Assembly (NCBI RefSeq): GCF_008638345.1
Contig: NZ_VTVA01000015.1
Span: 1 to 64,000, forward strand
DNA from: Pseudomonas saliphila
GTDB taxonomy: Bacteria; Pseudomonadota; Gammaproteobacteria; Pseudomonadales; Pseudomonadaceae
Length of the DNA stretch: 64,000 nucleotides
Direction: 5' to 3'
Made by a program: the position numbers and the translations under genes. How positions within the stretch are numbered: position 1 is the stretch's first letter; each line of letters begins with the position of its first letter. Below are positions 27,515 through 45,900 of the stretch, piece after piece. The notes below the pieces were generated by a model. It made no database searches, was not told the origin of the DNA, and was given only the letters and a program-made list of their open reading frames with translations.

Positions 27515-27535
27515 TTATTGATAAAGCTTATCATT
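27515..27535. promoter_or_regulatory. Fur box in the divergent exporter/fhuC region
   Basis: TGATAA and TTATCA flank a 3-base centre, with further A/T matches on both sides (TTATTGATAAAGCTTATCATT). This is close to the inverted GATAAT arrangement of the Fur consensus. It sits 31 bases from the exporter start and 49 from the fhuC start, placed to control both. Confidence 0.7.
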
Positions 27536-27583
27536 GCGTTTACCTTTATGCACCTTCGCAGCCGCCAGAAAAGGGGTGTTTAC

Positions 27584-28351
27584 ATGTTTGAGCTCAAGGG
27601 CGCGACCTTCGCGGTCAACGGCAAAACATTGTTGCAGCCCACCCATTTACACTTCGAAGAAGGCAAGGTCCACGGACTCATTGGTCACAACGGCTCCGGC
27701 AAATCGACCCTGCTCAAGCTGCTTGCAAGACAACAGCACGCCAGCGGCGGCGACGTATTATTCGATGGCAGACCCGTTACGCGCTGGGGCGACCGTGAAT
27801 ACGCACGCCAGGTGGCGTATCTGCCCCAGCATCTGCCGATCACGGACAATCTCACCGGCGCCGAACTCGTGGGTTTTGGACGCTATCCCTGGCATGGGCT
27901 GCTGGGTCGGCAGACCGCCGAGGACCGTAGCGAGATCGAACGGGCCATAGCGCTCACCGACACCCAGACACTGGCCGCCAGGCTGGTGGATTCGCTGTCC
28001 GGCGGTGAGCGCCAGCGTGTGTGGCTGGCCATGCTGCTGGCACAAAAAAGCCGATTCCTATTGCTCGACGAGCCACTGGCGGCATTGGATATTGCGCATC
28101 AAGTCGAGGTATTGAAGCTGATTCGCCGTCTGTGCCACGACCTTGGGCTGGGCGTAATCATCGTACTGCACGATATCAATATGGCCGCGCGATATTGCGA
28201 CCGGCTGATTGCACTGCACGGCGGGCGCGTGCTGGAACAGGGATCACCCATCGACATGATGGACAGCGACACGCTTGAGGCGATCTACGGTTTGCCGATG
28301 CAGGTCATGCGACCAAACGGCAGTCCGCACCCGATCGCGGTGGTTCAGTGA
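27584..28351 (+). CDS. fhuC: Ferric-siderophore ABC importer ATPase, FhuC type
   Basis: The product is 255 residues. Walker A GHNGSGKS is at 34-41, the signature LSGGERQRVWLAMLLAQ near 140, Walker B 'RFLLLDEPLAALD' and the switch histidine in 'IIVLHDINMAARYCD'. The set is typical of FhuC/FepC. It energises import through the inner membrane. The start at 27584 has AAGGGG about 9 bases upstream; earlier in-frame starts overlap the Fur site. First gene of fhuC-fhuD-fhuB. Confidence 0.92.
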   Translation: MFELKGATFAVNGKTLLQPTHLHFEEGKVHGLIGHNGSGKSTLLKLLARQQHASGGDVLFDGRPVTRWGDREYARQVAYLPQHLPITDNLTGAELVGFGRYPWHGLLGRQTAEDRSEIERAIALTDTQTLAARLVDSLSGGERQRVWLAMLLAQKSRFLLLDEPLAALDIAHQVEVLKLIRRLCHDLGLGVIIVLHDINMAARYCDRLIALHGGRVLEQGSPIDMMDSDTLEAIYGLPMQVMRPNGSPHPIAVVQ

Positions 28352-28394
28352 CGCTGCCGCAATCCGCAGCCTGACCGCCCGATTGCCCCCTGTA

Positions 28395-29303
28395 ATGACG
28401 GAGCCCTCTTTGTTATTCAAGTACCTGTCAGCGCCCCTGACGACCGCTGTTCTTGGTCTGTCACTTATCCTGGTGGCAGTTCCGGTCCGAGCAGAGCCCT
28501 CATCCGCCCCCGCGCCGCGCATAGCTACCCTGGACTGGACCATTGCCGAGACGCTGATGGGTCTGGGGATCGCGCCACAAGCGGTCGCCCAGATCGCCGC
28601 GTATCATGAATGGGTAGGCCAGCCCGAACTGCCAGTCAAAGTCATTGATCTGGGATTGCGCACCCAACCCAACCTCGAACTGCTGGCGGAGCTGCAGCCC
28701 GACGTCATCCTGATTTCGCCCATGTTCAGCAATATCGCGCCGCGGCTGTCCCGGATCGCTGAGGTAGAAACGCTGGAGTTGTATACCCCCGGCAGCAACA
28801 CCTGGCAGCAGATGATCCAGCTCACGCTGGATACCGCAACGCTGGCAGGCAACCCGCAGGCCGGGCAGCACCTGGTTGAAAGGACTGAAGCGGCCATGGT
28901 CGGCTGTCGCGAGCAATTACCGTCAGAAACAGAGCCACTGCTGATCATCCAGTTCATGGACGCACGGCATGTGCGTGTGTTCGGCGAAAACGGGCTTTAT
29001 CACGCGGTGCTCGATCAACTTGGGCTGGACAATGCCTGGACCGGCGAGACCAACAGCTGGGGCTTCTCGCTGGTGGGCCTGGAAGACTTATTGGGTATCG
29101 ATGGGCAACTGGTGGTGGTGGAGCCCTCGCCGCTCGGCGTGGAGAAAACGCTTGCCGATAACGGGTTATGGCAGGCGCTGCCTGACGTGCGCGATGACAG
29201 CGTGCTCAGCCTGCCGCCGGTCTGGAGCTTTGGCGCCCTCCCCTCGGCCCTGCGTTTCGCTGACGCGCTGACATCCGCCCTGGCCGCCAAGCATGACCGC
29301 TAG
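28395..29303 (+). CDS. fhuD: Periplasmic siderophore-binding protein, FhuD type
   Basis: The product is 302 residues from the chosen ATG. It has a signal peptide (about 1-33, '[12 protein letters not shown]') and a periplasmic binding fold of the helical-backbone class: '[24 protein letters not shown]' and '[18 protein letters not shown]' are the usual FhuD/BtuF blocks. It delivers the ferric siderophore to FhuB. No lipobox is seen. The start is uncertain because no clear ribosome-binding site precedes it. Its end overlaps fhuB by 11 bases. Confidence 0.88.
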
Positions 29304-31272
29304 GACGCTACCCTCCCCATTTCCCTTGGCCTTGTGTCTGCTGTTGGGCGCGGTAGTAGTCAGCCTGGCCTGGACTGCGTTGCCCGTGGAACGCGGCCTG
29401 CTGTTCAACCTCCAAACGCTTTTTAGTCCTGTTATCTCCAGTCCGGATGTCGCGGTGCTGTATTACAGCTGGTGGCCACGCTTGAGCATTTCCCTGCTCG
29501 CTGGCGCCGGTCTCGGGCTTGCGGGCGTGTTGATGCAACAAGTATTACGCAACCCGCTGGCCGCCCCCACCACGCTGGGCGTTGCCAGCGGAGCCAACCT
29601 GGCGCTCATTGCCGCGACGCTATTCGCGCCTGCGCTGCTGGTTTCCGGCCGCGAATGGGTAGCACTTGCCGGTGGTGCATTAACGATGGGCCTGGTGTTT
29701 ATGCTGGCCTGGAGCCGGGGCCTGGCACCCATGGTGGTGGTGCTTGCCGGTCTGGTGGTCAACCTGTTCGCCGGTGCGCTGGCGATGACGCTGCTGCTGT
29801 TCAATCAGGAAACGCTCAAGGGCGTACTGATCTGGGGAGCAGGCTCACTGACCCAGAGCGGCTGGAGCGATGTTGCCTATCTCTGGCCCCGGCTGGCCAT
29901 CAGTGCGGCACTGGCCTGGTTGCTGCTCCGGCCGCTGGCGGTGATGGATCTGGACGAAAGCAACGCCCGCAGCCTCGGCGTATCAGTCAGACAGCTGCGC
30001 CTGGCGGGCTTGGGCCTCGCCGTGTTTCTCACAGGATGCGTCGTCAGCGTAGTCGGCATCATTGGCTTTATCGGCCTGGCCGCACCCAATATTGCGCGCA
30101 TGGCTGGAGCTCGGCGACTGGGACCGCGCATGTTCTGGTCCGTCATACTGGGGGCGTTGCTCCTGACGACCACAGATCTGATGCTGCAGCAATTTGCCAG
30201 CAGCCCTTCTACCCTGCTGCCAACTGGCGCCATGACGGCAGCATTGGGCGCACCGCTGCTGCTCTGGCTGATTCCACGGCTCAAGCTGAGCGGCAATTCA
30301 CCTGGCGTACCGGCACAAGGGCTCGTGCATCGACACGCCAGACCCGGCCGCCTGGCGAGAACGCTTTCTATAATGTTGCTTGCGGCAGCGGTGCTCGCCA
30401 TCTTCATCGGTCAGACCTCACAGGGTTGGCACTGGACGGCGCAATGGAGCGTTCTGGAGTGGCGTCTGCCTCGGCTTCTGGCCGCTGCGGGAAGCGGAAT
30501 ATTGCTTGCCATAGCAGGCACCATTATCCAGCGGATTTCGGGCAACCCGATGGCCAGCCCCGAGCTGCTTGGTATTAGTGGAGGCAGCGCGATCGCACTT
30601 ATGGCGGTGATCTTCCTGCTACCTGCGCCCGGCAACCTGGCACTGGTTTCCGCCGGAACACTTGGTGCTCTGGGCGCGCTGGGTGTATTGGTTCTGCTCA
30701 ACCGACGCAGCGGATATGTGCCTGAACGTTTGTTGCTGACTGGCGTGGCAATCACTGCCCTGTTCGATGCCGTCCGCAGCGTTGTGCTCAGTGGCGGTGA
30801 CCCCAGGGGACAGCAGGTGATCGCCTGGCTTTCTGGCTCCACCTACTACGTCGACTTGCAAGGCGGGCTGCTGATCGCGGTCCTGGCGGTGGTCATGGCA
30901 GTCGCTACCCGTCCTTTGGCCCGTTGGCTGGACATTCTTCCATTGGGACCGGCGACAGCAAGTTCGCTGGGCATCGGCCTCAACCGGTCTCGCCTGTTTC
31001 TCCTCATGCTGATCGCTGTGCTGACCGCGTGCGCGACATTGGTGATAGGCCCCCTCTCCTTCGTCGGCCTGCTGGCACCGCATCTGGCGCGCCTCCTCGG
31101 ATTCGGCAGAGCCCGTGAGCACCTGTTCGGCGCTGCATTGATAGGTGCGCTTTTGATGATTCTCGCCGACTGGGTGGGACGGCAGGCACTCTTCCCTCAG
31201 GAAATTCCAGCAGGGCTGGTCGCTTCGCTGATCGGCGGAAGCTATTTCATGTGGAGCATGAGGAGGCGCTAG
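29293..31272 (+). CDS. fhuB: Double-length siderophore importer permease, FhuB type
   Basis: The product is 659 residues, twice the length of a single FecCD-type permease, with two homologous halves (about 1-335 and 350-659). Each has the RLPR-like motif ('[33 protein letters not shown]', '[39 protein letters not shown]') and the ATPase-contact block '[15 protein letters not shown]' / '[15 protein letters not shown]'. About twenty membrane helices are expected. It is the membrane channel of the importer, translated with coupling to fhuD. Confidence 0.95.
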
Positions 31273-31325
31273 GCGGGTCCCAAAAGGTATATGGCGACCG
31301 GCGTTTCGATGGTACAGATTCAAAT

Positions 31326-31356
31326 TTGACCTTGTAGTAGCTATAACCCTTAAGGT
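31326..31356 (+). promoter_or_regulatory. MerR-family-type promoter of the CDF transporter
   Basis: A -35 of TTGACC (31326-31331) and a -10 of TAAGGT (31351-31356) are separated by 19 bases, the over-long spacing of MerR-activated promoters. The spacer holds an imperfect dyad (CTTGTAG-TAG-CTATAAC) resembling CadR/PbrR/ZntR operators. The transporter ATG is 34 bases beyond the -10. No MerR-family gene lies in this window. Confidence 0.7.
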
Positions 31357-31389
31357 ATTGCCATATCGCGGGTTTTGCGAGGATCGACC

Positions 31390-32118
31390 ATGGACAGCTG
31401 CTGTGAAAACAAGTCCGGCGAACTGGCACAGCTAAGGGCCAGCCAGAGCCGGGTTCTTTATGTTGTACTTGCCATCAATGCGGTGATGTTTTTTGTGGAA
31501 TTCACCGCAGGCTGGATCGCCAGCTCAACCGCGTTGCTGGCTGATTCACTTGATATGTTTGGCGATGCGTCCGTGTATGCCTTGACACTCTTTGTTCTGG
31601 ACAGAAGCCGCCGAGCCCGTGCCGGCGCTCCACTGTTCAAGGGCGGATTCATGCTTTTGTTCGGTGTCGTTGTCATTGCCGATGCAGTTCGCAAGCTAGT
31701 GATTCAGGAGGTGCCAGCTGCGGACTGGATGGGCATTGTTGGCAGCATCGCCCTGCTGGCAAACGGGATCTGTTTCGCGATGCTCTATCGCCACCGGGCC
31801 GACGATCTCAACATGCGTTCGACCTGGTTGTGTTCCAGAAACGATCTTGTCGCCAATAGCAGCGTCATCCTTGCCGCCGGGCTGGTTGCCGTCACCGACA
31901 CCCTGTGGCCCGATATCCTTGTGGGCCTTGCCATTGCTGCCCTTTTCCTGCACTCCGCCTGGCAAGTCATCCGTGAGGGCATTGTGGAATGGCATGCCGG
32001 TGATTCCGAACCTGCTGTGGCCACGGCCAGCGATGATGGCGCGACCGGTGAAGATAGTTGCTGCTCATCATCGCAGAGCACATGTGCCAGTGAACGGGGA
32101 GTACCTCCCCGACGATGA
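31390..32118 (+). CDS. CDF-type cation transporter with cysteine-rich ends
   Basis: The product is 242 residues, with six membrane helices (about 20-205) and the metal-site helix 'ADSLDMFGDASVYALTLFVLD' plus 'SRNDLVANSSVILAAGLV', as in the paralogue at 21689-22582. It has no heavy-metal-associated domain. Both ends are cysteine-rich: Cys4-Cys5 at the start, and CC plus one more cysteine in the last 25 residues. This hints at a thiophilic metal. The start at 31390 is chosen over an in-frame TTG 15 bases upstream. A MerR-type promoter precedes it, so metal-induced expression is likely. Confidence 0.85.
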   Translation: MDSCCENKSGELAQLRASQSRVLYVVLAINAVMFFVEFTAGWIASSTALLADSLDMFGDASVYALTLFVLDRSRRARAGAPLFKGGFMLLFGVVVIADAVRKLVIQEVPAADWMGIVGSIALLANGICFAMLYRHRADDLNMRSTWLCSRNDLVANSSVILAAGLVAVTDTLWPDILVGLAIAALFLHSAWQVIREGIVEWHAGDSEPAVATASDDGATGEDSCCSSSQSTCASERGVPPRR

Positions 32119-32229
32119 CTTGTAACAATGTGGCTCGCCGGTTAACCATCCTGCACCCACGACTACCACGAAAGATTTCAATCGGCTTTCGTTAGATTGC
32201 CCAGCTTACAAAGCACCGAAGGGAATCTC

Positions 32230-32379
32230 ATGTCCAACGAGTTTTTCGTTCAAAGCTATCGGGGCTCTCTGTGGCATCGCTGGGATCCGCATATATACCC
32301 CATGCACGCACTGTACGACCAATACACAGGGCTAGATACCAGGCATGCGTTTCTAAGCGCCATCGAAACTTCAAGCTAA
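32230..32379 (+). pseudogene. Possible 5' remnant of a TrlF/PHP-domain ATPase gene
   Basis: A 49-codon frame with a good ribosome-binding site (AAGGGA, 7 bases upstream) encodes 'SYRGSLWHRWDPHIYPMHALYDQYTG...FLSAIETSS'. This is much like the N-terminus of TrlF-type PHP-domain ATPases, which I remember as starting GS-W-RWDPHIHAPGT-LNDQY-G. Here the second metal-site histidine appears as Tyr (HIY), and the frame stops where the family would continue. The remainder of such a gene is not seen before the peptidase gene at 32501. It could instead be a genuine small protein. Confidence 0.4.
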
Positions 32380-32500
32380 ATGCTACGGGGCCATTCGCAA
32401 TTGACACCCTGGAGATCGTTTTCCGTCCGCGCTGACAGTTTGGCCACTATTACGCCAGAAAGCTCAGTGAATACAGGGGTCGTCTCTTCTATCCAAAATA

Positions 32501-33217
32501 TCACTCTCTCCAAACCTCAGCCGAAAGCGGCAGTTCATTCAACTCAGCACGTGCCTCACGCCATGTTGGGAAATGCTCCGTGAGGATAGAGACGAAGCGC
32601 TCGTTATGAGTTGGCTCAAGCAGGTGAACCATCTCGTGAACGATTACGTACTCTAGGAGGTCTTTGGGCTTCTTAACCAACTCAGTGTTCAGGCGAATGT
32701 TTCCGGCTTTGTGGTTACAGCTACCCCACCTGGTCTTCATCCGCTGCAGGTAATAGCCAGCCACCTCGACCTTAAGTTTGCGTTCCCACTTCTTGATCAG
32801 CGCAGGCACCACGGCATGCAGCTGCTGCTTGTGCCATTCATGCAATACCTCTGCGCGCTTTAGTGCATCACTACCGGGGCGCACCGTTAAGGTGATGCGT
32901 TTGTGATCGAGCATTACCGTAGGCTTAACATCTTGGTAATTCACCACCATCAGGTAGCGTCGCCCCCAGATGTAGTGGCTTTCTCTTTCCACAAACTGGC
33001 GCGGTGCCTCCCGGGCCTGCGCGTCCAATTTACTCTGCTGATCACGAATCCAGCCCAGTTTTGAAATCGCGTAAGCCCGTGCAACCTCAAGCCGTGTGCC
33101 TGTTGGAGCAACTAGCGTCACTCGACCCTCAGGCGGATGCACACTCAGGTGGACATTCTTGATGTCCTTGCGGGTCACCAAGATAGAAATTTCGCCCAGC
33201 TCAATAATCTCGTTCAT
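32501..33217 (-). CDS. YgjP-like zinc metallopeptidase of the RM operon
   Basis: The product is 238 residues of the YgjP (DUF45/M48-like) family. It has RWGSC at 163-167 and the zinc motif HEMVH at 194-198, with a further histidine at 204 (EPTHNERF). It should be a soluble protease; substrates are unknown. It is the last gene of the type I restriction operon and begins at the base where hsdR ends (TGATG-type overlap), so it is made with the RM enzyme. Such genes are, as I recall, frequent hsdR neighbours, perhaps for turnover of the restriction complex. Confidence 0.9.
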   Translation of the reverse strand: MNEIIELGEISILVTRKDIKNVHLSVHPPEGRVTLVAPTGTRLEVARAYAISKLGWIRDQQSKLDAQAREAPRQFVERESHYIWGRRYLMVVNYQDVKPTVMLDHKRITLTVRPGSDALKRAEVLHEWHKQQLHAVVPALIKKWERKLKVEVAGYYLQRMKTRWGSCNHKAGNIRLNTELVKKPKDLLEYVIVHEMVHLLEPTHNERFVSILTEHFPTWREARAELNELPLSAEVWRE

Positions 33218-36200
33218 CAGTAGCCCGGTTGGTTCTTAATGATCTCGAATATCGCTTGGGTCGCTACCCGGTCACGGCCCATTAGGGGGTACAAAGCATT
33301 AAGAACCTGCGCCTCCCGTGCGGTGTCCCCTCGCCAGGATGCAGGCGCAGAGCCACGCATCGCCAGATCAAGATCCAGGGCCAGCCTCACCTTCTCACCC
33401 TCGTCTTGCGGGCACTGAAAAGTGCTCGTAGCAATGCTATCGAGGTTATTGAACAACACGACGGCCTCACGATGACCGTTAAGTGCCGCAGGCGACCCAC
33501 CTGTGCCTTTCTGCGCCATCTGTCGAACCAGCGCCTCAGCCTTACGCAGGAACTCCTCATAAGCAGCAGCATCATTACGGCTCTGCTTGATCAGATCCTC
33601 CAGCAAGAGCGACATCCCCTCGTAGAACCTTGGGTCAGTCAACTGTTCGCGGATGATGGTCTTGCGCACGTTATTGATAATGCCTTCGGCAATTGCATCC
33701 TTGGAGAGCTTGCCCTTGGCGTTGAGTTTCTTGGCGATGGCATCGTGAACGCCCGTCTGGATGATCAGCTCAACTAGCGAGAAGTTATCGACTGTACTCA
33801 AAGGGTCAGCGGGGTCCGCCTGAATATAAGTATTGAGCAGGTGCCGCATGTCCGCCTCGAACGGCTTAATGTCCAGCTCTTCACCCGCGTGTTTTTTGAT
33901 TGCCTCACGCAAGTCGGCATAAAACTGCACTTCAGTTTGCAGCCTGCCCGCTTCAGCCACCGAGTAACCCGCCTCGGTCAGATGCTGCGCCAAATCAGCA
34001 AACGCACGCACGAATGAAGCCACGGCTTTGTAGAAGGAAATCCGCAGCGCTTCAGTCTCGTCCAGGCCATTGGCATCAGCAGCCAGGCCACAGAAGTAAT
34101 GGATAAACTGCTCAACTTCGCGCGGCGGTGCCACTGGCGCACAGAGATAACTCAGTGCCTCACGGGCTGCATCCAGTTGCTTCTTGCCCTCAACCAGCCA
34201 GTTCTTCAGCTCCACGTTATTGCTGCCACCGCCGCCTGTGTCGATATCCAACTCGTCAGAGGTGTACACCGAAATAGCATCCTGTACGTCGCCGAATAGC
34301 TCTTTGAAGTCGACGATATAACCGAAGTCTTTGTCATCACCATCAAGTCGGTTGGTGCGGCAAATGGCCTGGAACAGGTTGTGATCACGCAGCTCGTTAT
34401 CTAGGTAGATGTACGAGCAACTGGGCGCGTCGAAACCTGTTAGCAGCTTGCTCACCACAATGAGCAGCTTCAGGTTGGCAGGTTCCTCGATAAAGCGACG
34501 CTTGATCTCTTCCTCGTAAGCCGTAGTGGTCTGGCCTTGCTTCAGCACGTACTGCGTGTAGGTATCGAATTTGTAGCGCTCGTCACTCTGCGCCGGCTCA
34601 CGGGAGATGGCGTTATGGTTCGGCTCATACGAAGTCACGATGCCGCAGTAAGGGCCGAACGAGGTGGTTTGAAACGAACGGAAGTAATGGCAGGCATCGT
34701 AGATGCTCGCCGCCACCAGAATGGCCGTACCTCGGTCATTGTTCAGCCGTGGTTTCAGACTGAAGTCCTCGATGATGCTGGCGATGATGCGCTGCTTGCG
34801 CTCGCCAGCACTCATCAATGATTCCATCGTGGCCCAGCGCTTACGCAGGATCGACTTCTGGTAGTTGTTCAACCCCTTGGTTTTCTGCTCAAACCAAGCG
34901 TCGATAGCCCTTTGCGACGTCAAACGCTGTGGCACATCACGCGCCTCATACTTCAGGTCCAGTACCACCTTGTCCGCCACAGCCTCATGGAATTTATAGG
35001 TGTGGATATAGGTGCCGAATACATCGCGCGTGGTCTGTTTGTCTTTGCGCAGCAAGGGTGTACCGGTAAAGCCGATGAACAGAGCATTAGCCAGCCACTG
35101 CTTCATTTGCCGGTTCATGTCACCACCCTGGGTACGGTGGCATTCATCAACGAACACGTAAAAGCTCCCGCGCATGGGTGGCGGCGGCACGCTCAGATCA
35201 GGCTCAAATTTATGCAGCAACGCGCACAGCAAACGCGGCGTAGTAGCGGATAGCTTCTGCACGAGGTCAGCGCGAGACGTGATACGCGGCGAAGGTGAGT
35301 CATTGCCGATGACTCCAGCATTGCGCATCACCCCGGAGATTTGTTTATCCAGCTCATCGCGATCCGTGATCACCAGAATACGTGCATCCGGGTCATGCTC
35401 CAGCAACCACTTGGCGATCAACACCATCAGGATGCTCTTGCCGCTGCCCTGTGTGTGCCAGATCACCCCACCCTCTTTACGCCGTAAACGCTCTTGAGCG
35501 GCCTTCACGGCGGCGAATTGATGAGGACGTGGCACCTTCTTGATGCCCGCATCGAAGATGATGAAATTACGGATCAGGTCAAGCAGACGCGACTTCTCGA
35601 ACATCTGCGCCAGCGGATCATCCAGCAAGTAACCAAATAGCGCTGTCTCCGGGCCCACTAGCGCTTGATAGTCAGCAGGCATCTCGCGTTGCGTATTTAA
35701 CTCATCCGGCTTAGTTTTTAACGCAGCAGCTTTCCACTCTACAAAGAACTCGGAACGAGTGGTGGCAGTGCCATAGCGCAAACCCTGTGAGTCGCTGCCA
35801 GCAAAAACAAGCTGCACCGTACTGAAGAACCCCAGGTTGAAGATTTCCTCCTGGTTGGTGATCAGCTGGTTGATGCCATCGGCCACCTCCACCGAACTGC
35901 GCTTCAGTTCAATCACGCCAACGGCGATACCGTTCAGGTAAATCACCAAGTCAGGGCGCCGCTCATGGCCCCCGCGCAAAGTTACTTCTTCAGCGATGGC
36001 GAAGTTATTAGCGTGAGGGTTTTCCCAATCGACCAGATGCACCGTCTCGTGAGCCTGGCCAACGGCTACCTGAACCGGCACGCCGTAACGCAGCAGCTGA
36101 TAGGTCCGCAGGTTGGCCTGATACAGCGTGATACCCGTGGCATCCGCTGCAGCCGTCAACCGTTGTAGCGCTGCCGATATGTGCGCATCGGAGTAGCCGC

Positions 36201-36369
36201 GCTGTTTCAGGCTGGCCTGCAGCAGCTCCGCTTCAATGTTGCGGTTTTGCCCACGCTTGCTCCACTCGCCCAAGTAGTCGTAGCCTAGGCAATCGGGCCG
36301 TGTGTTGTCCGTAAACAGGCCCACAACGCGGTTCTGCGTGCGGCGTTCGGAGCGAGGTTGTTGAGTCAT
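33217..36369 (-). CDS. hsdR: Type I restriction endonuclease subunit HsdR
   Basis: HsdR is the ATP-driven translocase and nuclease of type I restriction. The product is 1050 residues. The nuclease core has PD at 139-140 and ELK at 154-156 (PD-ExK). The helicase part has Walker A TQGSGKS at 306-312, '[12 protein letters not shown]', DEAH-like '[12 protein letters not shown]', 'GFTGTPLL' and later '[12 protein letters not shown]' and 'QAICRTNR'. A long helical C-terminus contacts the methylase. The ATG at 36369 overlaps the upstream stop (ATGA); the longer frame is not needed. Confidence 0.96.
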
Positions 36370-38357
36370 CAGGTGCATCCTGCAGGGTTTACTCGGTCTC
36401 TGCTGGCGAGGCTCTTCAGCAGCACGTCCATCATTTGCTGGTAATGCGCGCTTATAGCATGGGCATCCCAAGGCTCAGTTTTTATCATCAGGTGCTGCTT
36501 AACGCTATCGAGGGTGTTCTTCTGATAGAACTCCCTTTTTTGCCCAGGCGTGAAGTTGCTCAGACGAGAGTTTTTCTCGTGACTTATCAGGCAAAGGTTA
36601 CCGAACGAATTCAGATATTCCGGAGCAAGTTGATCAATTCCTTGCAGTGGATGCTGCGGGTAGTAATGCTCCACCGAACTGCGGAAAGTGAATTCATAGG
36701 ATTTCACTGGTTCGCTCGCACCATGGTCAAGCCACAACAGGTAATCCAGAAAGTTGAACACCAGGTTGTTTTCGATATTGCCGAAGCTCAAGCGCGGCCT
36801 CAGCGTCTCGGCCGTTAATCCTTCGCGACGGGTCTGACAGACGCCCTTGTTCCCGTAGATCATCGCGAAGTATTCCAAGCCCGCCACGGGAGCAAGAAAG
36901 CGGTCAAAGACAAATGCCTTCGCGACTGACTCCATGTACCGCAGGTAGGCCTGAGCCTCAACCTGCTCGGCGTGAAACAGGTAATACAACGCCGCATTCA
37001 GCCAGTGCTTGTAAACCAGCGTTGGCGTGGACACATGAAACGCCGACAGCAGCATCAAGATGCGACGGTTAATGCCTTCGCTGCCGTCCTCTTCGCCGAA
37101 GGTATTTACATAGCTGCCGCGCCCCGCGCCACCAGCTTTGCCGCCGTCGTTCCACTTAAAGCGCTTAAGGCTCCAACCATCCGCGCCTTTGATGAACTCA
37201 CGCTTGATTACGTAATGGTCAAACAGGTACTTGCAGCGCAGCAGGCTGAAGGTAAAACGCTTCACTGCCGCAACCGGGTCTGACTGCTTCAGGACATGGG
37301 TCTCAAAGGTATCCAGCAGTCGCTTGTCATCCAGAGGGATGTCCGCTTGCGTATCAGCCCTGAGCACATGCAGCAAAAAGTTGGGGAAGTTAATAACCGT
37401 ATTAAACCGCTCAGGCGCTTCTTCACCGTTGTCGGTTTTTTCCGCACTAACCGGCGGCCTGGCAATGATGTCCGTGAGGGACAACTTAGCCCCCTCCTTG
37501 TAGGCCACCTCTGGCGAACGGTGCAGCGCAGCAGTTAGCTCATCAAAGTTCGCGGGCTCAAACCGGCCCCAATCCTGTTCACCAAAAATGCTGCTGCGCT
37601 GGCCGGGCGTAAAGCCCATCTGCACATAGCGCTCCATATTCGCGCAGGCTTCCCATACGGTGTGCAGGCAGTTCTGGCTTTGCTGGCAGCCCTGCAGCTT
37701 CTCCATCATCCGCGCCTTGAGCACCTCGTGCTTTTCTAGCTGCTCACCGCGGTTGTTCATGATTTCAAAGTAATGGTTCAGGTCCGTATCCGCCGGCACC
37801 TTCACCCGCATGATCTGCACATAGTTGAAGAGGTAGTCGGCAAACTGCTGCGCTGAAACGCCGTTCTCTTTGAGCTTCTGCGGCAAGACCTTCTGGATCA
37901 GCCGATAGCCATTGAGGATGCCGGTATTGATCTGCTTTTCAGCCAGCACCTCGGCAGGGTCATCCTTGAAGCGACCCTCGAATATGGCCGCAAAGGTTGC
38001 CCGCGAATGCTCACGGCTATCGAAGTGGATACTCAGGTTTGAATACCAGTCGAGGTCGGCGGCCTTTGTGTTCTTCAGATAGGACGTCAGCAACGACAGT
38101 GTTGTCAGCCGCTGCTGACCATCGATGGTCTCGAAGACCGGTGTTTTGCTGTCCGGTCGCTCATACACCACCAGGCTGCCAATGTAGTAATTGCGTGCAG
38201 GCTTATCTTGCTTAGGCAGGTAGTCGATCACGTCCTGAATCAGCTGGGTAATCTCACCCTCTTCCCAGGCGTAATTGCGCTGATACATCGGAATAACATA
38301 CTCATCGTTACCATCGAGTAGCGCCTTGATAGAAAACTGCTTGGGCCGGTCACTCAT
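36369..38357 (-). CDS. DUF262-DUF1524 protein (RloF/GmrSD-like), RM-operon embedded
   Basis: The product is 662 residues. An N-terminal DUF262 (ParB-like nucleotidase-fold) domain has [11 protein letters not shown] at 22-32 and DGQQR at 79-83. A C-terminal DUF1524 HNH-type nuclease region has '[10 protein letters not shown]' (561-570; the family norm is EHILPQ) and '[17 protein letters not shown]'. This architecture matches GmrSD/SspE-type modification-dependent nucleases and the RloF proteins of type I loci. It overlaps the second DUF262 gene by eight bases and hsdR by four. Its exact job in a type I operon is not established. Confidence 0.85.
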
Positions 38358-39759
38358 AATATTTCATCGCCTTAAACAGCGCCTCGATTGCCCCAGTCTT
38401 GGTCGAACTGCTGCCAGTGAGTGATTTAAGCGGGTGATTGATAAAATCAGCCGGGCGCGTGGCATCTTTGATCAGCCTGAAAAAATTCTTCTTAAGCACG
38501 TGGTTATCCATGCTGGCCAGCTGCACCACCTGCATCTGCAGGCGCAGGCTGTAGGCCCAGATGAAAATCTTCTCGATGGCCCGCGACAGCTCCGCGTGGC
38601 CGAACTTGTCGATGTAATAGATCAACAGGCAATCGAACATCGCCCGCACATAGCAATCGCCGGTACGGGTTCTCGCCGGGTAAGAGTTAATGGTTTTCAT
38701 AATTTCTTTCGCGAAACCATCCAAACCCTCAGCACCGACTAGCTCGTGGCCGTTCCAGGACTCAGCACTGATCCGCGCCACCTTGCTCTGGTAATGGCTA
38801 ATCAGCTCAAAGAAGCGCCGACCATTGATAATGATCTGGTCCAGGTGGAAGGGAAAACCCATCTCCAGCGAGTCGATCTGGCGCTCGTATTGCCCGTTGT
38901 AGTGGTCGACAAAATGGTGGGCAATGCGCAGCTGTTCCACATAGGGATAGCTGGCCACCGTATCGATATTCACGCCCTTGAATAAGCCGCTGTCGTCCTT
39001 GCTGAAGTAACGTGCCGACGCCCCTTTCGACCAATTACGGATGCGATACAGGTACTGCGAGAACAGCGTCGCCAGCTCCTTGGTATTACTGCTTTCCCAG
39101 CGAGCCACCGTGGCTGCCTTCAATGGCTCGTCACTGGAGCTGAACTCACGCAGGTGGTAGGCCTTGAGCAGGTCATGCGGCTCCAGATCGCGGCCCCGCG
39201 CATTCTGCGAGTCGAAGAACTGGAAGGCCTCGGACACATCCGTCAGCGCTACCGCCACGACCTGGCACTTGTTCAGGAAGAAGTCGATATGCGCCTCGGT
39301 AAAGTCCGCACGGGAAACAATGCGGGCCACCTCAAAATAATTGCTGTGGATGTTTTTCTGCGAGATTTCGCTGCTAAAGCTGGGGTTGACCATTACCTGC
39401 TCAAGCTTGAGCAATCGCTCCTGCAGGTCTTTGCGTTCGAGCTTCTTTTCCTTGCTCCGCTGAATCAGTGCTCGGGCCGCCAGCAGCAGGCTGGTGGTGC
39501 GCTGCTGGCCATCGACGATGTTGTTTTTCTCGCCCTCCCGGTGAAACACGATGGTGCCTAGGCGGTAAGCGGACTTGTCCTTGTGGATGGCGATATCGGA
39601 GAACAACTGGTTGATGTGCTTGCCGGTCCATTTGTATGGGCGTTGGTACTGGGGGATTTCGAGCACCGGGTCCATGAGCAATTCATACACGCTAATGATC
39701 GTGCTGGAGAGTTCAGTGGCCTGCTGCGCTTGTTTTGCATCCCTGCCCAAGTCGGTCAT
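38350..39759 (-). CDS. DUF262 protein, partner of the DUF262-DUF1524 protein
   Basis: The product is 469 residues. DUF262 motifs are [10 protein letters not shown] at 35-44 and DGQQR at 83-87, with '[25 protein letters not shown]' further on, all typical. I see no DUF1524 HNH block at the C-terminus, so it may be a nucleotide-binding or sensing subunit that works with the next gene. It overlaps hsdS by four bases (ATGA) and its downstream partner by eight. Codon use looks like that of the rest of the operon. Confidence 0.85.
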
Positions 39760-41033
39760 ACCAAGCGCGTCCTTCCGGTGAGCAGCTCTCGCATCATGCC
39801 TTGCTTAAGGGCACGGGTTTTGGTCAAGCGTTGTTCCAATGCGGCCAGTTCGGCGTCCATATCGGACAGCACTGTGGCGATGGCAGTTTGCTCTTCGATA
39901 CGTGGAATTCGTATCGGTGCCTCCAGAAGCGCAGTGTTCTCGAAGTTAACCTGACTTTCTGCCATACCAGTTGTTCGCTGGTCCAAGTATGTCTGAGCGT
40001 CACGGGCGGAGATCGCAGTAGCCAACATCAATGGTACGACTTTATCTGGAAGGGGGCGAAGAGCGATCATCTTGCCGGAAGGGATGATTCGCGGTGGCAC
40101 GTAATTCACCCAAGCGGCCACGCCCACCCTGTGGCGAGGTCCAGCTTTTGTGACGATAACATCCCCCTGTCTTAGTTCGATTTGAGGCTTGTTCCAAAAC
40201 ACTCTCGGCAGAGTCTTGTGCTTCGTCCAATCCCAGCCGTTCTCTTTGGTTGCAGCAGTAGTTTTCAAAACCCCCCACTCGGAATCGTCCTGAATATTTC
40301 GCTCCTCACAAGTGGGGCTTGGGCCGCAGAAAGAACCAAATATAACGTCTTGAACCTGCACTATTTCCCACTCACCCTGGAAGCCGGGGAGGCGGGTTTG
40401 GCCGGTGAGGAGTTGTTGCATGGCAGCCTGTTTGAGGTCGCGCTTCTTGGCGATAAGCCGCTCAAGCGCATCCAGCAGAGCATCCACATCACTCAACGCT
40501 GTCGCGATGGCACGCTGCTCGTAGATGGGCGGTACTGGGGCAACAACAAGACTCAGATTCGACTGACCTATATTGGCGCGAATCGCACCTTGCCCCATCG
40601 GGATAATCTGCGAGCGAATACACGGCGCACGAAGTGCATAGCCTGAGTAAACAGGGTCAAGATTTCCATCAGTCGGTCGGCCACGAATTACAAAACCACC
40701 AAAGACAACTCGCTCAGAGCCGAGATAGGTGGAGGCCAAGCCAACTTCCTCTTGCGTCTCAGAGGTTCGATTGAAGAGCACGTCACCAAGCTTGACTGCA
40801 TAGGATATGGAAACAGATTCTGGCAGCGTCACCTGTCCCTGGATTTCAGGCCCGTGAATGTGCGAATACGTTATGGGTTCAAGCACATTGATAAAACGGA
40901 CGCCTTGGCCGTAGGAGTCTTTATCTGCGTTCACTCCATTTCGGAAGGTGAAAAGCGCTCCAAACGGTCTCACCTCCCACTCCTCCGGAATAACCCCCAC
41001 CTCCGTCTGTTTGTAGCCCTGCTTCACTGCCAT
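39756..41033 (-). CDS. hsdS: Type I restriction specificity subunit HsdS
   Basis: HsdS chooses the bipartite DNA target for the HsdM methylase and HsdR. The product is 425 residues with two target-recognition domains (about 15-165 and 225-375). Each is followed by a conserved helical spacer: 'PPIYEQRAIATALSDVDALLDALERLIAKKRDLKQAAMQQLLTGQTRLP' and 'RIEEQTAIATVLSDMDAELAALEQRLTKTRALKQGMMRELLTGRTRL'. It starts 'GYKQTEVGVIPEEWEV', as many HsdS do. It overlaps hsdM by ten bases. The recognition sequence cannot be read from the protein. Confidence 0.96.
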   Translation of the reverse strand: MAVKQGYKQTEVGVIPEEWEVRPFGALFTFRNGVNADKDSYGQGVRFINVLEPITYSHIHGPEIQGQVTLPESVSISYAVKLGDVLFNRTSETQEEVGLASTYLGSERVVFGGFVIRGRPTDGNLDPVYSGYALRAPCIRSQIIPMGQGAIRANIGQSNLSLVVAPVPPIYEQRAIATALSDVDALLDALERLIAKKRDLKQAAMQQLLTGQTRLPGFQGEWEIVQVQDVIFGSFCGPSPTCEERNIQDDSEWGVLKTTAATKENGWDWTKHKTLPRVFWNKPQIELRQGDVIVTKAGPRHRVGVAAWVNYVPPRIIPSGKMIALRPLPDKVVPLMLATAISARDAQTYLDQRTTGMAESQVNFENTALLEAPIRIPRIEEQTAIATVLSDMDAELAALEQRLTKTRALKQGMMRELLTGRTRLV

Positions 41034-43507
41034 ACCGCCCCCATCTTTTTCAGATGTTCGTCCACCCGACGGGCAAGGGACGCGACTTCATCGACGAGCT
41101 GCGGCAATGGCGTGGCATAGCGCTCATTCAGCTCGCGAATACGCCCGGTCAGTGTTTGCGACACTCGATCCAGTTCGCCCTGCACGGCAATGGCCAGGGT
41201 GGCCAGCCACTTATCGTCCACCACCAGGGTTTTGATTTCAGCTTCGTTGAGCTGCGGGTATTTAGCGTGGATCTTGTCGTCGAGGTCTTCCTCGGACTTT
41301 TTCAGTTTGGCCTTTAGACTGCTTTGCTGGTCGAGCAAGCCGGCGTATTCGGCCAGAACCTTGAGTTCGTCCTCATAGTTCGGATCGTTATCAATCTCGC
41401 GTTGGCGGGCCTTGATGGCTTTGGCGGTAACCTTCTGTTTGTCGCCCTCGCCTTCGATCACCTCGCTCAGTGAGCCATCCTCACCGCTGTGCTCTTCAAG
41501 CAGTTCGTTCAGGCTTTGTTCGATGCTGGCCAACTCAGTTTCCAGCCCTTCAATGGCGTTACGCTCAGCGCTGAAGTAGCGGGCAACCAGCAGCTCAACC
41601 GGGATGAGATCGGATTTGAAGCGTCGCTTCCCTTGGTTGTAGTCATGTTTTTCAGGCCAGCTCAACTTACCGTTCTTGTCCTTCTTCTGGCGGATTTCAC
41701 GCACTGCAGCACCGTCCTTCCAGCCGTCTGCGCTGATCAGGTAGCAGTCGTCTTGCATGGTCTCGGCCCAATAGTCCATCAGGTGCTGGTAGATGTCGTA
41801 ATGGTCGAGCAAGGGTGCTTTGGCAAAGGCACTGAGCAGTTCTTCCGAGAGCTTGAAGATCAACTCCTTGGGATGACTGCTGGCCGCCTCCGCAGCAAAA
41901 CCTTTCAGCTGCGGCGTGCTGCTGGCAAGCCACTGGTTGAACAGCGTATCAACACCCGCCTTAAAGGCTGTGAACTGCGGGTGGCCGAAGATTGCTGGCT
42001 TCACGTCGCGGCTGACCAGCTCGAAATAACCGGAATGGCTGGCGGGTTTGAACAAGGCCGCACGCAATGCAGGCATCACCTGCCAATAGCTGTCGAAGGC
42101 ATCGATGTCGCGCTCGGGAATGCCGCCGCGCAAGTGACCGTCGATGTCCTGAATATCCTCCGGTTCGGTGCTATCGATATAACGCGGCAGGTTGAGGTTG
42201 AAGTCGTTCTTCGGATCGCTAATCTCGTCAAAGGCCACCACACGCGCATAACGCGGCACGTCGGCCATACGGCTATAAGCATCGATGATCTTGTGCACAT
42301 CCTGATCACGCAGGCGGTTCTTCGGGCCATACTTAATGAAACCTTTGGCTGCATCGATCATAAAGATGCCTTTGCGCGCGCTGGCGTTTTCCTTGTCCAG
42401 CACCAGGATGCAGGCGGGAATACCTGTGCCATAAAACAGGTTCGCCGGCAAACCGATAATGGCTTTGAGGTAGCCTGAGCGCACCAACTGCTTACGGATC
42501 ACCGCCTCGGCATTACCACGAAACAGCACGCCGTGGGGCAGAATGCAGGCGCCTTTGCCAGTGCTTTTCAGTGAACGGATGATATGCAGTAGAAAGGCAT
42601 AATCACCCTGTTTGGCTGGTGGCTCACCCCAAGCAAAACGCTGGTAAGGATCATTGGCGGGCGTTAGGCCAACACTCCAGGTTTTAACCGAAAAAGGCGG
42701 ATTGGCCACCACGTAGTCGTAGGTGCGTAGCTGCTCGCCATCCTTGAACTTGGGATTGGACAGCGTGTTGCCCTGCAGAATGTTGGCGGTCGGGAAGTCA
42801 TGCAGGATCATATTCATGCGGGCGAGACCGGCGGTGGTCACGTCCATCTCCTGACCTTCCAGGGTTATGTGCTTACCGGCCTGGTCGGCGACTTTCAGTA
42901 ACAGCGAACCAGAACCGCAGGTAGGGTCATAAACAGTAGTCGCAGCCACGGCATTGGCCGGACTGATGCCGATGACTTTAGCAATAATGCGGCTGACTTC
43001 GGACGGTGTGTAGAACTGCCCTTTGCTCTTGCCGCTTTCGGTGGCGAAGTGGCGCATCAGGTATTCGTAGGCGTCACCGAGAATATCGTCGTTGTCGGCA
43101 CGGTTCTTCGAAAAATCCAGCTCAGGCTTCTCAAAAATCGCCACTAGATTGCTGAGCTTTTCCACCATGTCCTTCCCGTCGCCGAGCTTGCTCGGGTCGT
43201 TGAAGTCGGGGAAGTCACTGCGGGCAAGCCGGGCGTTGGCATCAATCAGCGGCTGGATGATCTGCGTGTTGATCTTGTCGCCGATATTGGGCTTGCCCTT
43301 GAGGGCGACCATATCCTTGAAACTGGCACCAAACGGGATGGTCACAGGCGGTGCAAAATCATCCGAGTTACCGTACTTGTCGGAGATGTACTTGATGAAC
43401 AGCATGAACAGGACATAGTCCTTGTACTGGCTGGCATCCATCCCGCCACGCAGTTCGTTACAAGAGGCCCAGAGGGAGGAGTAAAGATCGGATTTCTTGA
43501 TAGCCAC
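41024..43507 (-). CDS. hsdM: Type I DNA methyltransferase HsdM, long form
   Basis: HsdM methylates adenine (N6) at the site chosen by HsdS. A GTG start at 43507, with AAGGA about 8 bases upstream, gives MAIKKSDLYSSLW, the family start, and 827 residues. Motifs: GQFYTP (163-168), AdoMet motif I DPTCGSG (194-200) and catalytic NPPF (269-272). Ordinary HsdM is about 500-550 residues. Here about 280 extra C-terminal residues form charged, probably coiled-coil helices ('IEGLETELASIEQSLNELLEEH', 'LDQQSSLKAKLKKSEEDL'). First gene of the operon. Confidence 0.95.
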   Translation of the reverse strand: MAIKKSDLYSSLWASCNELRGGMDASQYKDYVLFMLFIKYISDKYGNSDDFAPPVTIPFGASFKDMVALKGKPNIGDKINTQIIQPLIDANARLARSDFPDFNDPSKLGDGKDMVEKLSNLVAIFEKPELDFSKNRADNDDILGDAYEYLMRHFATESGKSKGQFYTPSEVSRIIAKVIGISPANAVAATTVYDPTCGSGSLLLKVADQAGKHITLEGQEMDVTTAGLARMNMILHDFPTANILQGNTLSNPKFKDGEQLRTYDYVVANPPFSVKTWSVGLTPANDPYQRFAWGEPPAKQGDYAFLLHIIRSLKSTGKGACILPHGVLFRGNAEAVIRKQLVRSGYLKAIIGLPANLFYGTGIPACILVLDKENASARKGIFMIDAAKGFIKYGPKNRLRDQDVHKIIDAYSRMADVPRYARVVAFDEISDPKNDFNLNLPRYIDSTEPEDIQDIDGHLRGGIPERDIDAFDSYWQVMPALRAALFKPASHSGYFELVSRDVKPAIFGHPQFTAFKAGVDTLFNQWLASSTPQLKGFAAEAASSHPKELIFKLSEELLSAFAKAPLLDHYDIYQHLMDYWAETMQDDCYLISADGWKDGAAVREIRQKKDKNGKLSWPEKHDYNQGKRRFKSDLIPVELLVARYFSAERNAIEGLETELASIEQSLNELLEEHSGEDGSLSEVIEGEGDKQKVTAKAIKARQREIDNDPNYEDELKVLAEYAGLLDQQSSLKAKLKKSEEDLDDKIHAKYPQLNEAEIKTLVVDDKWLATLAIAVQGELDRVSQTLTGRIRELNERYATPLPQLVDEVASLARRVDEHLKKMGAVWQ

Positions 43508-44480
43508 GAACAATCCTTGCTGGTGTAAAAAATGATTACGCAGACACTGCGCTTGATCCTATCCCGTGCCTCGCTTTGGAACTGAGGTCCGCGGCGGCTG
43601 GGTACTAATGGCGAGCGGTACGTACCTGCGATTAGCGCTCGCACTTTATCCATTTCAGCTAGATTGGGCTATATGGTTTTTCATCTCCCCCGTATACGGT
43701 TTAGCATCAGGCCGTACTGACCAGTGAATTAGGGCCTGTGGACGAGGAGGAAGTGGCGCTTGACTTTTGTAGCTCTGATTGCGAGCCGTAGAGAGTCTAA
43801 TCAGTAAAAGCCAACGAGCCTGATTGGAGCACTTCATATTGGTTTAATGGGAGCTATGGCCAATAGGTGCTCCTCTAGAAAAACGCTTTGGGCCGCTGAA
43901 GGTCCGTCCCAAATGTCAGCTCCCGGACCCAAAGCTGCCCTCATTGGTAAGCAATAATCAGCCATAACCGATCATTGAGTACTCTTCGCATTTAGTTGAT
44001 TCACAGGGTCGCCAGTCATAGGCTGATATCCAGCTTCGTTCAACTAGATCTATAGGCGCAAATAACGTGGGTCTGATGTCAGGTTAGGTTCGGCGTCCGA
44101 AATTAATGCTAGCACGATCGGCAGCTCGGACGGGGATGACTGAGGACCTGAGGTGGAGCTTTGTTTATCAAATCCAGGGTCGTTTCAGAGAATTGAACAG
44201 TAATCGGTTTCTCATGAGTCTCTCGGGTTAGCCGTTGGAACAGGTGGTTGTAATTTGTCCCCAATGGCACCAGGGACTTCTTTAGCGCCTCAGACGACCG
44301 GGAAACTATTACCGATCTCAACAAGCAAGCCGATCCACTCCCTCATCGATGCAGAGGCCCTGTATCGGCAACTCTCGGCCAGTCCTCATTGATTAAGGGG
44401 ATAACGTGTTTGGCCCAACCATTCTCGAGTACAGGCCTGATGGGGGAACAAGTGGGGGAATATCGAAGCGTATAAACAGC
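43508..44480. other. Non-coding region between hsdM and tRNA-Ser
   Basis: About 970 bases with no convincing gene. The hsdM promoter must lie at its left end. A minus-strand frame at 44109-44324 (71 codons) has no clear start signal or family. The segment near 44440-44458 has two GGGGGAA repeats (GGGGGAACAAGTGGGGGAA), a pattern I associate with tRNA-targeting integrase ends. It may be the decayed edge of the island. Confidence 0.4.
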
Positions 44481-44515: not shown

Positions 44516-44605
44516 TGGCGGAGAGTCAGGGATTCGAACCCTGGGAACAGTTGCCTGTTCAACGGATTTCGAATCCGTCCCGTTCGACCACTCCGGCAAC
44601 TCTCC
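44516..44605 (-). tRNA. tRNA-Ser (CGA)
   Basis: The reverse complement gives a 90-base class II tRNA starting GGAGAGT, with a long variable arm, anticodon CGA (loop ATTCGAAAT), T-loop GGTTCGAATCC and encoded CCA. It lies next to the restriction island, a usual place for integrated elements. Confidence 0.96.
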
Positions 44606-44617
44606 AAGTCGGCGCGC

Positions 44618-44646
44618 ATGATAGCAGTTATGCTGCCATTGGCGAA
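44618..44646 (-). promoter_or_regulatory. Promoter of tRNA-Ser
   Basis: On the minus strand a -10 of TATCAT (44618-44623) and a -35-like TTCGCC (44641-44646) are 17 bases apart, with a GC-rich discriminator (GCGCGCCG) before the tRNA. Confidence 0.6.
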
Positions 44647-44874
44647 AGTCTCGTAGCCCAGCTATGCGCTTAATTTGCTGCAGTTTATGGTTACTGGCAG
44701 ACGGGTTGAGGATGCGAGCAACTATTTGCGAGTTGCGAGTTAATGGCTTCGTCCCAGTTCACCTGCCAGGAGCAGCATCCCCTGTTGCGAGGATATTGAT
44801 CAGCATTTGAACATGGATGGCGCGAAGAGAGTTGACCAGAGCCACGTCCCTTCGGCCGCAACAGCGATGGATTT

Positions 44875-45045
44875 CTACCCTTTGGCGGTCAGTAGCCGGG
44901 CCAGGTGGCAATTGATCTTGCCATCACAGCCGAGACACTCGGAACGGGCTGGGCATTCGGTTGGCAAAGTAGCTACTACAGGTTGATAGCAGAACTCGTG
45001 ACCGGAGCAGAACAGCCATTTTATTGCGCTGATGAGGGTGTGCAT
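44875..45045 (-). CDS. Small cysteine-rich protein upstream of purC's neighbour region
   Basis: A 56-residue frame begins MHTLISAIKWLFCSGHEF and ends LLTAKG. A perfect AGGAGGT ribosome-binding site lies 4 bases before the ATG. It has five cysteines, four of them in 'CPARSECLGCDGKINC' (spaced C-x6-C-x2-C-x5-C), which could bind a metal or cluster. It lies on the same strand as purC, beyond its end. I recall a small annotated gene (PA1013.1) at this place in P. aeruginosa, which supports it being real. Function unknown. Confidence 0.75.
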   Translation of the reverse strand: MHTLISAIKWLFCSGHEFCYQPVVATLPTECPARSECLGCDGKINCHLARLLTAKG

Positions 45046-45125
45046 GTTGACCTCCTGAGGTTGCCAGTCAGGTCAGATTAGATAACGTGGGGCGGTGATG
45101 CCTTGATCGTGGTCAAGTAATTATC

Positions 45126-45163
45126 CCCCTCTGCCCCGCCCTCTCCCGCGAGGGAAGAGGGCG
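45126..45163. repeat. REP-like GC-rich hairpin, possible purC terminator
   Basis: GCCCTCTCCC and GGGAAGAGGGC pair around a GCGA loop, preceded by CCCCCTCTGCCCC. This composition matches the dispersed CCCTCTCCC/GGGAGAGGG intergenic repeats of many Gammaproteobacteria. On the minus strand it lies 23 bases after the purC stop and may end that transcript. Confidence 0.55.
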
Positions 45164-45186
45164 CTATGGCCAGTCTGCAACAGGAT

Positions 45187-45900
45187 TCAGGCCAGCGGGA
45201 CACCCAGGCGTTGTGCGACTTCTTCATAGGCTTCGATGACGCCGCCAAGACCTTGGCGGAAACGGTCCTTGTCCATCTTCTTTCCGGTAGTCTTGTCCCA
45301 CAGACGGCAACCGTCCGGGCTGAACTCGTCGCCCAACACGATCTCGCCCTTGAACACGCCGAACTCGAGCTTGAAGTCGACCAGCATCAAGCCGGCGTCA
45401 TCGAACAACTGCTTGAGCACGTCATTCACTTTCAGCGTGAGCGCTTGCATGCGTTCAATCTGCGCGGCGGTGGCCCAGCCGAAGGTTACGACGTGTGAGA
45501 CGTTGATAAAGGGGTCGCCTTTGGCGTCATCCTTCAGGAACAGCTCGAATGTCGGCGGCGCCAGTGCCTGACCTTCCTCGATGCCCAGACGCTTGACCAG
45601 ACTGCCGGCGGCATAGTTACGCACCACGCACTCGACGGGGATCATGTCGAGCTTCTTCACCAGGCATTCGGTATCGGACACCAGGCTGTCGAACTGAGTC
45701 GGAATTCCGGCTGCCTCAAGCTTCTGCATAATGAAGGCGTTGAAGCGGTTGTTGACCATGCCCTTGCGGTCCAGCTGTTCGATCTTCTTGCCATCGAATG
45801 CCGAGGTATCGTTGCGAAACAGCAGGATCAGACGATCCGGGTCGTCGGTGGTGTATACCGACTTGGCCTTGCCACGATACAGCTCTGTACGTTTTTCCAT
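45187..45900 (-). CDS. purC: Phosphoribosylaminoimidazole-succinocarboxamide synthase
   Basis: PurC joins CAIR and aspartate, with ATP, in purine synthesis. The 237-residue product is the normal bacterial length. It has '[33 protein letters not shown]', the '[13 protein letters not shown]' substrate loop and 'LVDFKLEFG...[15 protein letters not shown]', all conserved. Its ATG shares a base with the stop of the upstream metallo-hydrolase gene. Confidence 0.98.

Follow-up and report, generated by a model that had tools for sequence, protein, structure and literature searches.

The window analysed here is the whole stretch of 64,000 nucleotides of Pseudomonas saliphila (contig NZ_VTVA01000015.1, positions 1 to 64,000), and the element in question is a type I restriction-modification (RM) operon that also carries two DUF262 genes and a peptidase gene. 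Six open reading frames (ORFs) without internal stops followed one another on the minus strand, from 43507 to 32501, in the order hsdM-hsdS-DUF262-DUF262/DUF1524-hsdR-ygjP. All five junctions overlapped, by 10 bases between hsdM and hsdS, 4 between hsdS and the first DUF262 gene, 8 within the DUF262 pair, and 1 base on either side of hsdR. The first-pass annotation of this DNA had described this order with five overlaps of 1–10 bases and had read it as one operon; both statements were confirmed. The genes, with their lengths in amino acids (aa), are as follows:

41024..43507, minus strand: hsdM, type I methyltransferase subunit, 827 aa, GTG start; Pfam N6_Mtase (1.6e-96) and HsdM_N
39756..41033, minus strand: hsdS, specificity subunit, 425 aa; Pfam Methylase_S, PADLOC Specificity_I
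38350..39759, minus strand: tgvA-like gene, 469 aa; Pfam GmrSD_N (DUF262) and DUF7834
36369..38357, minus strand: tgvB-like gene, 662 aa; Pfam GmrSD_N (DUF262) and GmrSD_C (DUF1524, His-Me nuclease)
33217..36369, minus strand: hsdR, type I restriction/motor subunit, 1050 aa; Pfam HSDR_N, SWI2_SNF2 and T1R_D3; TIGR00348 at 478 bits
32501..33217, minus strand: ygjP, predicted zinc metallopeptidase, 238 aa; Pfam YgjP-like (6.5e-57) and SprT-like; HEMVH at 194

The hsdM start is most likely the GTG at 43507, which follows AAGGA and agrees with the MAIKK start of the E. coli relative, and the hsdR start most likely lies at 36369. The type I enzyme was recognised from HsdM, HsdS and HsdR, all with intact catalytic motifs; NPPF and PTCGSG were seen in HsdM, and GSGKS, DECHR, FTGTP and IELK in HsdR. 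The E. coli relatives of the window YgjP carry the annotation M48 family.

The DUF262 genes presented the features of a TgvAB pair. They are adjacent and lie between hsdS and hsdR, each encodes an N-terminal DUF262 domain with a DGQQR motif, and DUF1524 with its H...N...N His-Me site is found in the second gene only; a Pfam search of the window TgvA found no DUF1524 or other nuclease domain. The DGQQR motif of TgvA was invariant across 44/44 aligned rows, as were DGQQR, H564, N587 and N596 of TgvB across 39/39. The predicted structure of TgvA (mean predicted local distance difference test score 85.0) showed likeness to SspE and to the DUF262 protein of 9jfl, and a weaker one to BrxU, in a comparison by VIA-align that barely tests residues 190–333. 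The earlier assignment of the pair to the GmrSD-type modification-dependent nucleases was borne out.

Although the first-pass annotation could not place the six-gene arrangement, comparison with two published systems identifies it as a type I locus of RRDM-like layout with TgvAB-like cargo (PMC11411939; PMC12255303). The first is the VPI-2 operon of V. cholerae (VC1769–VC1765), which has the order hsdM-hsdS-tgvA-tgvB-hsdR and an active type I enzyme (Vizzarro et al., 2024; PMC11411939). In that operon TgvA (DUF262) and TgvB (DUF262 and DUF1524) are both required, protect against Tevenvirinae, and lose protection when the DGQQR or HNH motif is mutated (PMC11411939). This counterpart provides experimental evidence for the earlier suggestion that such a locus covers both unmodified and hypermodified DNA. 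A survey of 41,142 genomes in the same paper reported 79 five-gene operons and 1,341 hits of the tgvAB pair. The window shares with the V. cholerae operon the five-gene order, the two DUF262 proteins with DUF1524 on the second, and the same motifs; it differs in its sixth gene, ygjP, behind hsdR, whereas V. cholerae has Zorya at VC1761–64. The word peptidase is absent from the main text of PMC11411939. No V. cholerae record was in a set of 68 loci.

The second system comes from enteropathogenic E. coli, whose RRDM island consists of RptR and hsdM-hsdS-darT-darG-hsdR-M48 peptidase (PMC12255303). Two E. coli records showed this gene order, with darT frameshifted in one. In the other, L142, HsdM and HsdR were 54% and 41% identical to those of the window, and the M48 peptidase (WP_001122107.1) was 39% identical to the window YgjP over nearly its full length. 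The RRDM island therefore resembles the window in the order hsdM-hsdS-cargo pair-hsdR-M48 and in its homologous subunits, and the 1-base overlap of hsdR with the peptidase gene recurs in L142. The cargo differs, being darTG in the RRDM island and tgvAB, rather than a DarTG pair, in the window. RptR was not found upstream of the window hsdM by tblastn (E 0.01) with the 79-aa RptR-like protein of L142, and this search over the window and 25 loci matched in L141 and L023 only.

Other relatives of the pair are organised differently. GmrSD, BrxU and SspE are single-chain type IV enzymes with DUF262 and, in part, a DUF1524 nuclease, whereas the window splits the work over two proteins. The two-protein GmrSD-like system GrwAB (PMC12137116) is matched, by architecture alone, by the cargo pair of a related locus described below (L102); GrwB has a long C-terminal extension, while TgvA is short and carries DUF7834. 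RloF of C. jejuni, a DUF262 family member, lies between hsdS and hsdR as the window pair does. The operon thus joins TgvAB-like cargo to a chassis of the RRDM type, in which RptR was not found; these are known kinds in a combination that is partly in print.

The whole block was common to four Pseudomonas loci (L004, L006, L007 and L044) and to L102 from the same family, at 81–86% DNA identity. This recurrence speaks against a chance adjacency of the DUF262 genes to hsdS and hsdR, which the first-pass annotation had named as one of the outcomes that would undo its proposal. The shared block extended from the ygjP stop at 32501 (32507 in L007) to 43543–43547, that is, 36–40 bases before the hsdM start. 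Homology to the five sister loci was lost within hsdS at about 39895–40365 and 40552–40971, with the centre of hsdS kept; these two variable stretches are probably the target-recognition domains, which are expected to behave in this way. In L102, homology was additionally lost at 36354–39752, which is exactly tgvAB. A different DUF262 pair, one protein of 606 aa with DUF1524 and one of 805 aa without it, took its place, and HsdR and YgjP were 91% and 89% identical to those of the window. Beyond Pseudomonas, V. ruber L054 and Shewanella L023 (tgvB being split in the latter) had the same gene order; Marinomonas L021 and the Verrucomicrobiota loci L010 and L016 had it too, but with extra ORFs ahead of hsdR.

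The space between hsdS and hsdR behaved as a cargo slot. Loci had been collected through TgvA or HsdR matches; the query that yielded the E. coli loci L141 and L142 also contained ygjP, and its listed matches lay in hsdR. Setting aside 16 loci in which no window-like hsdS was found and two duplicates among the remaining 32 left 30 distinct loci with window-like hsdS and hsdR. YgjP followed hsdR in 30/30 of these, and the slot held tgvAB in 17 (split in L023 and L046) and other ORFs in 13. The cargo found by Pfam in slots without tgvAB included GmrSD, YhcG nuclease, Schlafen, OLD-like and other AAA ATPases, Abi_2 and RhuM, and in L104 a weak AbiH match, below the Pfam cut-off, with a zeta-like kinase. 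NERD nuclease, DarT with a macro-domain protein (DarTG-like), Fic, Schlafen and AAA proteins were seen alongside tgvAB in some slots. The Pfam scan took in 34 cargo ORFs, of which 27 had a match at E 0.001; several ORFs of about 90–150 aa and L115 lay outside it. No Pfam or PADLOC match at E 0.001 was obtained for the cargo ORFs L106:7642-8940 (minus strand), L112:6309-7172 (minus strand), L113:11854-12815 (plus strand) and L128:11022-12812 (plus strand), which are candidates for unknown defence genes; the one in L128 sits between tgvA and tgvB. L128:9195-15114 (plus strand) encodes strongly diverged TgvA and TgvB (28% and 27% identity) with a 597-aa protein of an unmatched family between them.

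Pairwise distances were compared in the 11 loci where all six proteins were above the score thresholds, a set that excluded L005, L010, L016, L023, L046, L128 and further loci truncated at contig ends. The correlations were 0.99 for HsdM-HsdR, 0.98 for HsdM-YgjP, 0.96 for HsdR-YgjP and 0.96 for TgvA-TgvB. Across modules, TgvA and TgvB correlated with HsdM and HsdR at 0.52–0.60 and with YgjP at 0.66–0.68, and HsdS correlated with the other five proteins at 0.39–0.63. A quick LG+G4 tree of HsdR (60 rows, with long-branch warnings, six loci being left out for short downstream sequence) required two changes of YgjP state and eight of TgvA state; L046, where the tgvA frame is split, was scored as lacking TgvA, and the count is seven if it is taken as present. 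The operon is built of modules: HsdM, HsdR and YgjP co-diverge, TgvA and TgvB co-diverge, and the HsdS target domains and the cargo between hsdS and hsdR are swapped.

We conclude, with a probability of roughly 0.9, that this type I RM operon belongs to the clade in which a YgjP/M48 metallopeptidase gene follows hsdR, and that it carries an independent type IV cargo of the TgvAB type in the slot between hsdS and hsdR. The anatomy, the intact motifs, the modularity and the lineage tie of YgjP to HsdR support this directly, and the activities are taken from published relatives, with activity in print for both the V. cholerae operon and RRDM. HsdM-HsdS would methylate the host sites, and HsdMSR would cut DNA with unmethylated sites. 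TgvA, with its DUF262 and helical DUF7834 domains, and TgvB, with DUF262 and the His-Me nuclease, would jointly sense base-modified DNA and restrict it by nucleotide-dependent cutting, without need of the type I enzyme. YgjP would act for the type I enzyme, perhaps controlling it by proteolysis.

Several points weigh against this conclusion. Every correlation, the weaker cross-module ones included, was reached by just 0 to 3 of 500 shuffles, so the modules have been incompletely exchanged, and all correlations are raised because the 11 loci include a tight Pseudomonas group. The whole V. cholerae cluster is 10- to 100-fold more protective than tgvAB alone against several phages (PMC11411939), so some coupling is possible, if only of expression. 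Finally, the likeness to V. cholerae TgvAB is one of architecture and motifs; the nearest Vibrio locus of this layout compared by sequence was V. ruber L054 (54% identity in TgvA, 48% in TgvB).

The sixth gene was closely tied to hsdR. YgjP followed hsdR in 39/39 rows of one HsdR branch (Shimodaira–Hasegawa-like approximate likelihood ratio test 86, not starred), whether TgvAB was present or not, compared with 1/21 rows elsewhere in the tree. Over 26 loci the HsdR-YgjP distance correlation was 0.95. Beside HsdR, 42 YgjP frames were found in 41 loci, the frame of L113 being split, and HExxH was retained in 41/41 loci. The nearest possible ygjP start lay between −11 and +4 bases from the hsdR stop in 41/42 frames, with a 1-base overlap in 22, and the conserved DNA block ended at the ygjP stop codon. 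Judged by sequence, YgjP probably belongs to the type I enzyme set, perhaps as a built-in regulatory protease.

Two accounts of its role were considered. The first holds that YgjP is a passenger that is translationally coupled to hsdR and has no function for it, which we regard as possible though unlikely. A stand-alone ygjP also occurs in E. coli, and this counts for the passenger account. In the same direction, the available text of the RRDM paper reports no function for the M48 gene (PMC12255303), and the description of the V. cholerae operon lists five genes, with YgjP not among them (PMC11411939). In a limited search of the literature on YgjP or M48 with type I RM, PMC12255303 was the only paper examined that names an M48 peptidase beside hsdR. 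The branch-wide presence, the HExxH motif kept despite the split frame of L113, the correlation with HsdR and the end of the conserved block all argue against a passenger.

The second account, which we put forward tentatively and with somewhat more doubt, is that one clade of type I restriction enzymes has YgjP as its dedicated fourth component, a protease translated together with HsdR that would trim or remove HsdR complexes on the cell's own DNA. ClpXP acts in restriction alleviation (PMC4231737), and the likening of YgjP to ClpXP in the control of HsdR is a guess by analogy.

TgvAB was also found away from this layout. TgvA and TgvB both scored over 300 bits in 69 loci: 17 had hsdS-tgvAB-hsdR, the flanks of 34 yielded no type I gene, 8 had other arrangements and 10 were cut too short. 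The 17 hsdS-tgvAB-hsdR loci, the window counted, were contiguous in 9 and had further ORFs in the slot in 8, and YgjP was present in 16. YgjP was also tried as a partner of TgvAB and rejected: it occurs with other cargo, and it was in the flanks of 0/34 TgvAB pairs lacking type I genes, a set that includes near-duplicates such as two Klebsiella plasmids and hence fewer independent cases. Among plasmids, 907 of 72,556 records had a TgvA match, 855 of them Klebsiella and 3 Vibrio. In the Klebsiella plasmids L140 (CP125754.1) and L143 (NZ_CP144721.1), where TgvA was 53% identical to that of the window, TgvAB adjoined a DUF4011/Hhe defence gene and no type I gene was found nearby.

In the genus of V. 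halioticoli, a TgvA relative was present in 15/227 genomes, two of which were already in the set of loci; of the other 13 regions 10 were examined, and the gene order of the window was found in none of these. No type I gene was found near TgvAB in L130–L133 and L136. In L134, L135 and L137–L139, TgvAB stood directly after hsdS in a type I set of another, weakly matching kind, in which hsdR, where found, lay upstream of hsdM; this layout links TgvAB to type I RM in a second way.

These data bear on whether the six genes form one integrated machine, in which TgvAB needs HsdMS or, like PrrC in EcoprrI, is set free once the type I enzyme is blocked. The overlapping genes, the EcoprrI-PrrC precedent and the stronger protection by the whole V. 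cholerae cluster favour such a machine. Against it, 34 of the 59 TgvAB loci with enough flank, the two Klebsiella plasmids included, showed no type I gene in the neighbourhood; unrelated cargo filled the slot of close relatives, and other cargo that of the near-identical type I locus L102; TgvAB distances tracked HsdM and HsdR loosely; and in V. cholerae a cluster with mutated HsdR nuclease was as protective as the wild type (PMC11411939). We therefore consider an integrated machine very improbable. The stand-alone copies, the L102 swap and the HsdR mutant likewise leave without support both an obligate combined system and the back-up triggered by a blocked type I enzyme that the first-pass annotation had proposed.

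An accidental pile-up in a variable region, with a meaningless gene order, can practically be dismissed, since the position beside tRNA-Ser in a stretch that is not syntenic in the three relatives examined is outweighed by the repetition of the order, with matching block boundaries, in several genomes of the Pseudomonas type, and of the order in Shewanella and V. ruber and, with extra ORFs, in L021, L010 and L016.

As to the surroundings, purC and tRNA-Ser adjoined each other in the three relatives, where the left side was not syntenic. The gap between tRNA-Ser(CGA) and the end of purC, within window positions 44516–45187, was about 580 bases, compared with about 45 in those relatives, a sign that this edge has undergone an insertion or a rearrangement. 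The left flank (27518–32490) matched the other 36 genomes searched in the genus only in part and at scattered places, so that a clean empty site did not emerge. Contigs C19, C23 and C59 of the host genome carry further, more distant HsdR relatives, so the host probably has several type I systems.

Under the reading of a type I operon with independent TgvAB cargo, the locus presents a readable design in which HsdM, HsdR and YgjP form the fixed chassis, HsdS serves as an exchangeable address, and the slot between hsdS and hsdR takes a second defence that is likewise exchangeable and in this case is TgvAB. Unknown defence genes may be sought in that slot; several cargo ORFs in it had no Pfam or PADLOC match. 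The pairing of the YgjP and HsdR lineages raises a directly testable question about a gene that the published accounts, in their available text, list without a function or omit. If YgjP does act on HsdR, restriction alleviation from within the operon could permit HsdS and the cargo to change freely without killing the host.

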